A DNA stretch of 64,000 nt from Bacillota bacterium (lineage in GTDB: Bacteria; Bacillota; Sulfobacillia; JAIMAT01). The stretch lies in contig JASBVS010000037.1 of assembly GCA_029960955.1 (NCBI GenBank), forward strand, positions 62,001-126,000, written 5' to 3'. The translations under genes and the position numbers were made by a program. Of this stretch, positions 7,369 to 12,340 are shown one piece after another. The notes under the pieces are model-generated. The model saw only the letters and a list, made by a program, of their open reading frames with translations. It had not been told where the DNA came from and made no database searches. Position 1 is the stretch's first letter. Each line of letters begins with the position of its first letter.

Positions 7369-8204
7369 CTAGGGTGCGCCGAGCAGGTCGGCCACCCCGC
7401 GGCGGACCCGTTCGCGGATCTCGGCGGCGCTTCCTCCCCGGGCGACGAGGCGGACCAGGGCGGAGCCGACCACGGCCGCGTCGGCCACCGCGCCCGCCGC
7501 CCGCACGTCGGCCGCCGTCGAGAGGCCGAATCCCACGGCCACCGGCCAGGGGGTCAGCGCCCGCACCCGTCCGACCAGGGCGGGAACGCGCGGGTCGAGA
7601 CCGCCGGAGGCGCCGGTGACGCCGGTCAGGGCGACGCCGTAGACGAAGCCCGTGCCGACCGCCAGCGCTGCGCGCAGGCGGGCCTCGGTGGCGGTGGGCG
7701 CGACGAAGGGGATCCAGGCGAGGCCGAGCTCGCGCGCCCGGAGCGGGAGGTCGCCCGCTTCCTCCGGCGGCAGGTCGGGCAGGATGACGCCCGCCGCCCC
7801 GGCCTCGGCCGCCTGCCCCAGCCAGCGCTCGCAGCCGTAGGCCAGGACGGGGTTGAAGTAGCTCATCAGGCAGACCGCCGCCTCGGGCCGCGCCTCGCGC
7901 AGCCGGCGCAGGCCCTCGAAGACCTGCGAGGGGCGGGTGCCGGCGCCCAGCGCCCGCTGCCCCGCCGCCTGGATGACCGGCCCGTCGGCCAGCGGATCGG
8001 AGAAGGGCAACCCCAGCTCGAGCACCGCCGCGCCTCCCTCCAGCGCCCCGGCGGCCGCGGCCAGCGACCTCTCCGGGTCGGGGTCGCCGTACATGACGTA
8101 GGCGACGAGCGGGACGGCCCCCTCCGCGCGTCTCCGGCGGATCGCCTCGGCGATCAGGCGGGCGCCGCGCGGCTCCTCGCCACGGCTCGTCTCGACGGCG
8201 AGGC

Positions 8205-8208
<4 letters not shown>
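7369..8208 (-). CDS. trpA: Tryptophan synthase alpha subunit
   Basis: [53 protein letters not shown]; follows trpB with ATGA-type overlap. Confidence 0.96.
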
Positions 8209-9402
<1,194 letters not shown>

Positions 9403-9425
<23 letters not shown>

Positions 9426-10860
9426 GTTCCCACCCCCTCACGGCTTGCACGAAGGCCCGGATCCGCCCGGGATCCTTCCTCCCCCCGCTCTCCACGCCCG
9501 AGGAGACGTCCACCCCGTCGGGCCGGTAACGCTCCAGAAAGCCGGCCACGTTCTCCGGATCGAGGCCGCCCGCCAGCCACCAGCGGAGGCCGCGGGCGCG
9601 GAAGCCGAGCGCGGCCTCCTCCGGCGCGCGCCGCCCGGCGCCGCCCTCGCCGGGGTCGAGAAGCCAGCGGTCGGCCTCGCCCCGCGCCTCCTCCGGCGAC
9701 GCCACGGCGCGGATCAGCTCCGCGTCAGGAAGGAGGCTCCGCAACCGGAGCACGTACGCCTCGTCCTCGCCGCCGTGCAGCTGGACCGCGTCCAGGCGGC
9801 AGCGGCGCGCCAGCGCCGCCACCTCCTCGGGCGCCTGGCGGGCGAAGACGCCCACGCGGAGCACCGCGGGCGGCACCTCCCGCGCCCAGGCCGCCGCCGC
9901 CTCGGGGTCGACGCTCCGCCGCCGCCCCGGCAGCAGGATCCAGCCGACCGCGTCCGCGCCTGCCTCCACCGCCGCGCGGGTGGCCTCCAGGCTGTCCAGG
10001 CCGCAGATCTTCACCCGCACGCGCTCCCGGCCCGCGGGCGCGCCGGGCCGCCGGACGGCCGCGAAGCCTGCGGCCAGTCGCGCGGGATCGCCGGCGCGGA
10101 CCAGCGCCTCGCCGACGAGGGCGGCGTCGACGCCGGCCTCCGCCGCAGGGAGGAGCTCCTCGGGCCGCCGGTAGCCGCTCTCGGCCACCAGCAGCGCGCC
10201 CCGCGGCCGGCCTTGCCCCGGGGCGCGCAGGAAGCGCGCCACCCGCTCCGCGCGCTCCCGCTCGACCCGGAAGGTCGCCAGGTCGCGGTTGTTGACGCCG
10301 ACCAGACGCGCGCCCAGCGCGGCGACCCGGGCCGCCTCCTCCTCGTCGTGGACCTCGACCAGCGCCTCCAGCCCTGCGCGCTCCACCTCGTCGAGCATGG
10401 CGGCGAGCTGCTCGGGCTGCTCGAAGAGGCGCGCGATCACGAGGACGGCGTCGGCCCCCAGCGCGGCGCTCTCCCGCACCTGGTCCGGATCGATCAGGAA
10501 GTCCTTGCGCAGGACGGGCACGGGGACCGCCGCGCGCACCGCCCGCAGGTCGGCCGGGTCACCGCCGAAGAAGGTTCGGTCGGTCAGGACGGAGAGGGCG
10601 GCCGCCCCGCCCTCGACGTAGCGCTCGGCCAGCCGGGCCGGCTCCGGGATGGGCGCGATCTCGCCGGCGGAGGGCGAGCGCCGCTTGCACTCCGCGATCA
10701 GGCCGAGCCGGCCCTCCCGCGCCCGCCGCCGCAGCGCGCGCTCCAGCGAGAGCGGAGGGCGCGCCCCTCCGGCCCCCGCGGCCCGCGTGGCGACCGCCGG
10801 CGCCTCCCGCGCCGCCGCCAGCTCCCTGCGCTTGGCCTCCACGATCGCGTCGAGGATCAT
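9403..10860 (-). CDS. trpCF: Bifunctional indole-3-glycerol-phosphate synthase / phosphoribosylanthranilate isomerase (TrpC-TrpF fusion)
   Basis: One uninterrupted frame: IGPS ([50 protein letters not shown]) then PRAI ([59 protein letters not shown]). Start 10860 overlaps the trpD stop. Confidence 0.93.
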
Positions 10861-11921
10861 GCGCCGCGCCGCTCCTCGCCCGGCCTGCGCTCCGCCAGCT
10901 CGCGGCTGAGCGTGCGGAGCGCTTCCAGTCGCTCCCGCGCCGCCCCGCCGTCGACGCTGCGCCGGGCCAGCTCCAGCCCCTCGCGCAGGTCCCCGGCGAC
11001 GTCGGCCGCCAGGAGCGCCGCCGCCGCGTTGAGCAGGACCGTCTCCCGCCGCGGGCCCTCCTCGCCCCCCAGGACGGACTCGGTGATGGCGGCGTTCTCC
11101 GCCGCGTCGCCCCCGGCCAGCGCGCTTCGCGGCGCGGGCGCCAGGCCGAGCTCCTGGGGATCGAGCACGTAGGTGTGCAGCCGCCCCTCCCGGGCCTCGG
11201 TGACGCGCGCCGGCGCGCTGGTGCTCAGCTCGTCCAGGCCGTCCAGGGAGTGGACCACCAGGACGTGCCGGGCGCCCAGACGCATCAGCACCTCGGCCAG
11301 CGGCTCGGTCAGCGCCGGGTCGTAGACGCCCACCAGCTGCGCCTCCGCCCCGGCCGGGTTGGTCAGCGGACCGAGCACGTTGAAGATCGTCCGGAAGCCG
11401 AGCTCCCTGCGCGGCCCGGCGGCGTGGCGCATGGCCGCGTGGAGCCGCGGCGCGAAGAGGAAGGCGATCCCCACCTCGTCGAGGCAGAGCCCGGCCGCCT
11501 CCGCGTCCAGGTCGACGGCGACGCCCAGCGCCTCCAGCACGTCGGCGCTCCCGGCGCGGCTGGAGACCGAGCGGTTGCCATGCTTGGCCACCGCCTGCCC
11601 CGCCCCTGCCACCACGAAGGCCGCGGTGGTGGAGATGTTGAACGTGCCGGCCCCGTCGCCCCCGGTTCCGCAGGTGTCGACGACAGGCGCCCGCCTCCGC
11701 TCGACCCGTGCGGCTCGCTGCCGCATCGCCCGCGCGGCCCCCTCGATCTCCTCCTCCGTCTCGCCGCGCACGCGCATCGCCGTCAGCAAGGCGGCGATCT
11801 GCGCGTCGCTGGCGCGCCCGTCCATCACCTCGCCGATCACTTCCTCGGCCTCGGCGACGGTCAGCCGCTCCCCCGCCGCCACCTTCGCCAGCGCCTCGCG
11901 CAGCATCCCACCACCCCCCAT
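10857..11921 (-). CDS. trpD: Anthranilate phosphoribosyltransferase
   Basis: LREALAKVAAGERLTVAEAEEVIGEVMDGRASDAQIAALLTAMRVRGET, VDTCGTGGDGAGTFNISTTAAFV, KHGNRSVSSRAGSADVLEALG. Start 11906 or 11921. Confidence 0.95.
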   Translation of the reverse strand: MGGGGMLREALAKVAAGERLTVAEAEEVIGEVMDGRASDAQIAALLTAMRVRGETEEEIEGAARAMRQRAARVERRRAPVVDTCGTGGDGAGTFNISTTAAFVVAGAGQAVAKHGNRSVSSRAGSADVLEALGVAVDLDAEAAGLCLDEVGIAFLFAPRLHAAMRHAAGPRRELGFRTIFNVLGPLTNPAGAEAQLVGVYDPALTEPLAEVLMRLGARHVLVVHSLDGLDELSTSAPARVTEAREGRLHTYVLDPQELGLAPAPRSALAGGDAAENAAITESVLGGEEGPRRETVLLNAAAALLAADVAGDLREGLELARRSVDGGAARERLEALRTLSRELAERRPGEERRGA

Positions 11922-11951
11922 CGGCTCGGACACCCCGGCCTCCAGGCCGAC

Positions 11952-11988
11952 AGAAAAGCGGCCCCGCCCGTTGGGACGGAGGCCGCGG
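11952..11988 (-). terminator. Second (gene-proximal) T-box-associated terminator
   Basis: Minus: GCGGCCTCCGTCCCAACGGGCGGGGCCGCTTTTCTGT, strong hairpin followed by a U-rich tract. Confidence 0.7.
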
Positions 11989-11998
11989 TGCCACCCAA
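11983..11998 (-). promoter_or_regulatory. Second T-box (antiterminator) sequence of the trp leader
   Basis: Minus: TTGGGTGGCACCGCGG, matching the T-box core (GGGTGGnACCGCG). Confidence 0.88.
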
Positions 11999-12031
11999 GC
12001 TTGGAGCCCCTGCCGGAGGTGCGCCGGCGGA

Positions 12032-12063
12032 TAAAAAAACTTCCGCCCGCATGGGACGGAAGT
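12032..12063 (-). terminator. First T-box-associated terminator
   Basis: Minus: ACTTCCGTCCCATGCGGGCGGAAGTTTTTTTATCC, hairpin plus seven Ts. Confidence 0.88.
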
Positions 12064-12304
12064 CGATTCCGCGGTGCCACCCAACTGGGAGGAAGCTCCC
12101 ACTCAGCCCGGATCCCTTACCGGATCCGGCTCCCCTGTACCGGGGGGAGAACCGGCGCACCCTAGGGCGCCCCAGCGCCTTCGGGCCGCAGCTCCGGGAG
12201 CCATTCACCCGCCCGCCGCACCGGCTCGCAGCCGCCGCCGGCTCTCTGAAGCGGCCAGACCAGGCTACTCGTTCCCGTCATCGCCCGGGACCACGTTCGG
12301 TTTG
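12032..12304 (-). ncRNA. T-box riboswitch leader of the trp operon (Stem I with UGG specifier plus first antiterminator/terminator)
   Basis: Minus: GATGACGGGAACGAGTAGCC (AGTA region), CAGAGAGCCGG, GGGTGAATGGCTCCCGGAG (TGG specifier at 12203-12201), TTGGGTGGCACCGCGGAA (12084-12067), then terminator. The UGGC bulge in the T-box would pair with G73-CCA of tRNA-Trp. Confidence 0.9.
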
Positions 12305-12310
12305 GGTGCG

Positions 12311-12340
12311 ATTCTACCTGCGCGCCCGGGGAGGCGTCAA
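12311..12340 (-). promoter_or_regulatory. Sigma-A-type promoter for the trp T-box leader
   Basis: Minus: TTGACG (12340-12335) - 18 nt - TAGAAT (12316-12311). The TGA of TTGACG is the sucD stop codon. Confidence 0.75.

Follow-up and report, generated by a model that had tools for sequence, protein, structure and literature searches.

One predicted tRNA-Trp sensor followed by two antiterminator/terminator modules in the leader of a trpD-first tryptophan operon

Can a single T-box sensor serve two antiterminator/terminator modules arranged in series, and is the second module maintained by selection? The question is raised by a leader on the minus strand of the window (the whole stretch of 64,000 nt of DNA that was analysed), located between sucD (end at 12337) and trpD (start at 11906). 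The letters were read directly and the features placed by exact match. A sigma-70-type promoter, TTGACG-18 nt-TAGAAT, is predicted at 12311–12340 on the minus strand (10 of 12 positions match; shuffles gave an expectation of 0.0) and overlaps the sucD stop codon; it is aligned and kept in the congener G002 and visible in the congener G001. The preliminary description had assigned the leader to a trp operon, and NCBIfam models recovered three of its genes on the same strand: trpD (10857–11906; TIGR01245, 410.5 bits), a trpC-trpF fusion in a single open frame (9403–10860; TrpC at residues 1–262, TrpF at residues 280–478) and trpB (8205–9425; TIGR00263, 620 bits). The fourth, trpA (7369–8208, minus strand), was recognised from its translation alone, with its start inferred from the overlap with trpB, giving the order trpD-trpCF-trpB-trpA behind the leader.

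In a scan by E-value the Rfam T-box model RF00230 matched positions 12290–12049 of the minus strand over its full length (model positions 1–219) with 67.5 bits and E = 1.8e-14. This covariance-model match identifies the leader as a member of the family, though the score lies below the Rfam gathering score of 93. A scan at the gathering score found nothing at the leader, so that ordinary Rfam annotation would miss this T-box. Throughout the high-GC genome of the host, 10 RF00230 matches were obtained at E up to 10, and 0 of these 10 at the gathering score; standard annotation would therefore report no T-box in this genome.

Within the match, Stem I, the specifier domain, occupies 12191–12286 (minus strand; RF00230 positions 1–104) and carries the UGG specifier at 12201–12203 directly after the GAA of the specifier loop, an arrangement (GAA-TGG) also found in 68 leaders of the same class. 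It is followed by a Stem II or IIA/B-like region at 12105–12190 (RF00230 match and alignment, parsed by eye), with an F-box-like motif CCGGTA that reads CCGTTA in both congeners, and by the Stem III hairpin GTGGGAG-CTTC-CTCCCA at 12085–12102 (RF00230 match and folding). The covariance scan had been proposed beforehand as a check on the claim that only one Stem I is present. It returned the one full match and no second match up to E = 10, and thus no second Stem I with its own specifier; neither a Stem I terminal motif nor an F-box was detected between the two modules of the window leader, and a second Stem I is excluded by the 86-nt repeat spacing, which is too short for it. A full tandem T-box, whose second unit has its own Stem I, was rejected on the RF00230 scan and the motif search.

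The two T-box cores lie at 12084–12069 and 11998–11983 of the minus strand (exact match). They are copies of the 16-mer TTGGGTGGCACCGCGG, which occurs exactly twice in the 64 kb, 86 nt apart. Allowing up to three mismatches yielded the same two copies and no others in the 64 kb; because about 1.9 matches at three mismatches are expected by chance, the signal consists in the exactness and the 86-nt spacing. Antiterminator 1, UGGG[UGGCACC]GCGGAA...UUCCGUCCCA (12052–12084, minus strand), is predicted at −10.0 kcal/mol, and terminator 1, a hairpin followed by U7 (12033–12063), at −16.9 kcal/mol when folded alone with flanks (z −4.8). The corresponding elements of module 2 are antiterminator 2, UUGGG[UGGCACC]GCGG-CCU-CCGUCCCAA (11971–11998, −7.5 kcal/mol), and terminator 2, a GC-rich hairpin and then UUUUCUG (11951–11986, −25.2 kcal/mol alone with flanks, z −4.5). 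Both terminator hairpins are hence much more stable than their shuffles. When evaluated in the same caller as the antiterminators, a heuristic one for terminators, they gave −15.5 and −23.8 kcal/mol, and in each module antiterminator and terminator are predicted to be mutually exclusive. By these folding energies, termination would be the default at both gates unless the antiterminator is stabilised, as expected of a T-box. The positions given in the preliminary description for the TGG specifier (12203–12201), both T-boxes and both terminators hold on the minus strand, as does its reading of two complete modules in tandem, with an identical core, after one sensor. Two complete modules behind a single Stem I and specifier are the arrangement of a partially tandem T-box.

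Three further structural possibilities were set aside. A short hairpin ahead of module 2 (12012–12028, minus strand) is Stem III-like by position; its sequence varies within the genus, and with a z of only −1.1 it is no better than shuffles as a second Stem III. A crossed antiterminator, joining the 5′ half of T-box 1 to the 3′ half of module 2, reached −11.5 versus −10.9 kcal/mol and was otherwise unsupported. A translational role of module 2 was dismissed, as some 30 nt separate the end of the module from the ribosome-binding site.

The specifier loop reads GUGAA-UGG-C, in which the glycine codon GGC begins one base further on. A sensor reading glycine through GAA-U-GGC would be compatible with the usual one-base gap after GAA, yet we regard this as highly improbable, given the acceptor ends of the tRNAs concerned and the genes that follow such leaders. 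The bulges of T-box 1 and T-box 2 are both UGGC. The genome contains two tRNA-Trp(CCA) genes, read at their loci, that both end in G73-CCA, while the single tRNA-Gly that was read, tRNA-Gly(CCC), ends in U73 (UCCA); the UGGC bulges therefore fit tryptophan and speak against a GGC specifier, and in both modules the bulge is complementary to the discriminator G73, as had been anticipated. Moreover, the leaders picked by GAA-TGG with any next base (n = 68) mostly precede trpE, trpD, trpB2, trpS or transporter genes, and at the window locus the UGG specifier agrees with the amino acid made by the products of the downstream trpD, trpCF and trpB. Read from the letters and the predicted folds, the leader thus combines one sensor, two complete modules and a match to tryptophan. 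The tRNA-Trp(CCA) genes are located at C21:147663-147735 and C12:2393-2465 of the host genome; the acceptor stem of the C12 copy contains a U1-U72 mismatch, and this copy adjoins an extra tRNA-Thr(TGT), and further tRNA genes were seen on the small contig C43.

Conservation in relatives had been named as a test of the double module. In both other genomes read of the genus the trpD leader carries two modules as well (L193, L195), so the arrangement is kept in 3 of 3 genus members. In the genus alignment T-box 2 is nearly invariant; the inter-module linker and the sequence beyond terminator 2 are variable. Terminator 2 of G001 ends in CTTGCG, a poor U tract, and termination there may be weak for that reason.

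For the GTDB class, Trp-type Stem I sequences were collected by the pattern CAGMGARCCGG...GAATGG, yielding 68 leaders with a readable T-box. The next gene was trpE in 37 cases, trpD in five, trpB2-like in five, trpS in nine, a transport gene in eight and another gene in four; beyond trpD these groups rest on recognisable translations, and trpE also on an NCBIfam match for L049 (identical to L282). Two modules were present in 21 of the 68 leaders (16 before trpE, three before trpD, two before trpB2). The doubles make up 21 of 47 biosynthetic leaders versus 0 of 17 trpS or transport leaders (Fisher p 5e-4, an indicative value, since the compared sequences are related and p-values overstate their independence). 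The modules are mostly spaced by 65–124 nt, and by 166–207 nt in three Thermaerobacter-like genomes. Of the 21 class doubles, 0 showed a Stem I motif or F-box between the modules and 18 showed an F-box-like motif ahead of T-box 1. The genome of the window itself has two more GAA-TGG leaders with one T-box each, before trpE (C21, L261) and before a small transporter-like membrane protein (C45, L263), the latter so read by eye from its resemblance to L259 and L266 of the congeners.

Both antiterminators can form in all 21 class doubles, and for each module a hairpin with a U-rich tail was called in 19 of 21. In the alignment of module 2, which was not fitted to the structure, the structure itself being taken from the known T-box fold, the pairs of antiterminator 2 are kept in 93.3% of cells, versus 44–60% with one strand slid by 1–3 columns. 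There are 20 two-sided (compensatory) changes, and 0 of 500 shuffles scored as high. Terminator 2 is stronger than terminator 1 in 19 of 21 doubles (medians −25.3 versus −17.3 kcal/mol), the antiterminators being of equal stability; in single-module Trp leaders the terminator median is −23.3 kcal/mol, which makes module 1 the weak one in the class doubles. Taken as patterns of sequence change, these comparisons demonstrate selection on both modules.

When the species genomes of GTDB were scanned for a TTTT flanked by two T-box cores, at least 119 loci with the same spacing emerged (121 occurrences among the matches listed), in several phyla and for other amino acids. Conservation of the T-box cores and of the TTTT of module 1 in this set reflects data selection, because the pattern demanded them. 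The N (fourth base) of the UGGN bulge, left free in the pattern, is identical in both modules in 106 of the 121 matches listed (shuffled mean 55, maximum 73), an agreement that is partly due to common descent. Among the matches listed are Lactobacillaceae, Veillonellales and other Negativicutes, Clostridium, Alicyclobacillus, Paenibacillus, Chloroflexi, Pyramidobacter and Sumerlaeota, with downstream genes for amino-acid ABC transporter permeases, sodium/solute symporters, DAHP synthase, Asp/Asn-tRNA ligase and acetolactate synthase as well as trpE, ilvD, argC, thrS, serC and lysA. The shift in terminator strength is much smaller in these matches than in the class, with −17.8 kcal/mol for module 1 and −18.7 kcal/mol for module 2. 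In at least four leaders a single Stem I is followed by three modules at intervals of about 90 nt (L054 of Paenibacillus alvei, L076 of a Veillonellaceae member, L141 and L159). Two separate double-module leaders occur within about 2 kb on the contigs of L064 (Veillonellales) and L127. In Symbiobacterium-type leaders (L198, L199, L200) two UGGC T-boxes precede a class V (serine-type) aminotransferase gene, and a long insert interrupts the second hairpin.

We favour, with a probability of about 0.7, a transcriptional T-box that senses tRNA-Trp through one sensor and acts through two successive expression platforms. Uncharged tRNA-Trp would bind Stem I with its CCA anticodon on the UGG specifier, and its free 3′ GCCA end would stabilise antiterminator 1 via the UGGC bulge, letting the polymerase pass terminator 1. 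The polymerase would then transcribe the second T-box copy and would pass terminator 2 only if antiterminator 2 forms, the bulge of which fits the same tRNA end. With charged tRNA, terminator 1 would form, and any leak would meet the more stable terminator 2. Both modules are probably tRNA-dependent in the cell, in which case readthrough would approximate the product of two gates, with lower leak and a steeper response; that two decisions tighten repression is plausible. One bound tRNA could serve two, and elsewhere three, platforms in turn: once terminator 1 is passed, hairpin 1 would refold, free the 3′ end of the tRNA and pass it to bulge 2. We consider this hand-off attractive but tentative and somewhat unlikely; alternatively, a second tRNA may serve module 2.

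The engagement of module 2 by the sensor is itself a proposal, and module 2 might instead be a constitutive attenuator or back-up terminator with a disused antiterminator, tRNA control being confined to module 1. Such a role would suit the energies, as terminator 2 is far more stable than antiterminator 2 (−23.8 versus −7.5 kcal/mol), and the poor U tract of terminator 2 in G001 has also been counted in its favour. Against it stand the compensatory changes that preserve the antiterminator 2 pairing, the near-invariance of T-box 2 in the genus and the fourth bulge base of module 2, which follows that of module 1. A pure terminator needs neither antiterminator pairing nor a T-box nor a bulge match, and we therefore judge this explanation unlikely. 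The same covariation largely refutes the claim that module 2 is functionless, be it what is left of a complete second T-box after decay, or an artefact of a recent tandem duplication. Loss of Stem I would be an easy route to such a relic, given that full tandem T-boxes are, according to a passage of PMC12452182, common on Bacillota trp operons. However, all three genomes of the genus keep the arrangement, many families show it in their trpE, trpD and trpB2 leaders, the sequence between the modules holds remnants of Stem I or an F-box in 0 of 21 leaders, and three-module leaders exist, which leaves this origin quite improbable. The reading with two tRNA-controlled platforms in series accommodates the pairing of antiterminator 2 and the matching bulges.

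A structural class of T-box in which the terminator-antiterminator elements are duplicated was reportedly described by Vitreschak et al. 2008 (RNA 14:717). This class apparently has the same architecture, one specifier domain with repeated terminator-antiterminator elements; the window locus differs in belonging to a high-GC Bacillota-like lineage and in its trpD-first operon. A literature phrase search for duplicated T-box elements gave no match. The RF00230 T-box of the transcriptional tRNA-Trp class shares with the window leader Stem I with the specifier, Stem III, the T-box with UGGN bulge, the terminator overlapping the antiterminator and the downstream amino-acid gene; the window leader adds a second antiterminator/terminator module without its own sensor. 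A passage of a 2020 review (PMC7583486) names 'partially tandem' T-boxes and gives their mode of action as unknown. Complete tandem T-boxes, which according to a passage of PMC12452182 are enriched on trp genes in Bacillota, likewise put tryptophan genes behind two successive terminators, but have a sensor per unit where the window leader shares one. The passages of Sherlock et al. 2022 (PMC9481103) on tandem riboswitches describe a similar series gating with a steeper, pseudo-cooperative response, in categories where a single platform is served by one or more aptamers or where several aptamer-platform units are combined. The cited passages of PMC9481103 and PMC12452182 contain no category in which one sensor serves several platforms. 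For double T-boxes, a passage of a 2022 histidine study (PMC9413887) considers possible cooperativity, 'leading to a sharper response'.

The architecture itself is not new, since it is widespread and already named in the cited passage of the review PMC7583486. Judged by the comparisons made here, the window leader is a real, evolutionarily maintained case of this recognised, partially tandem form. The form is common and is shared by leaders for several amino acids; in the class of the host it accompanies genes of tryptophan biosynthesis but not trpS or transporter genes. Natural leaders with one, two and three gates are thereby available as material for serial gating, and the hand-off, if true, would mean that a single sensor checks the same ligand again at each successive gate.
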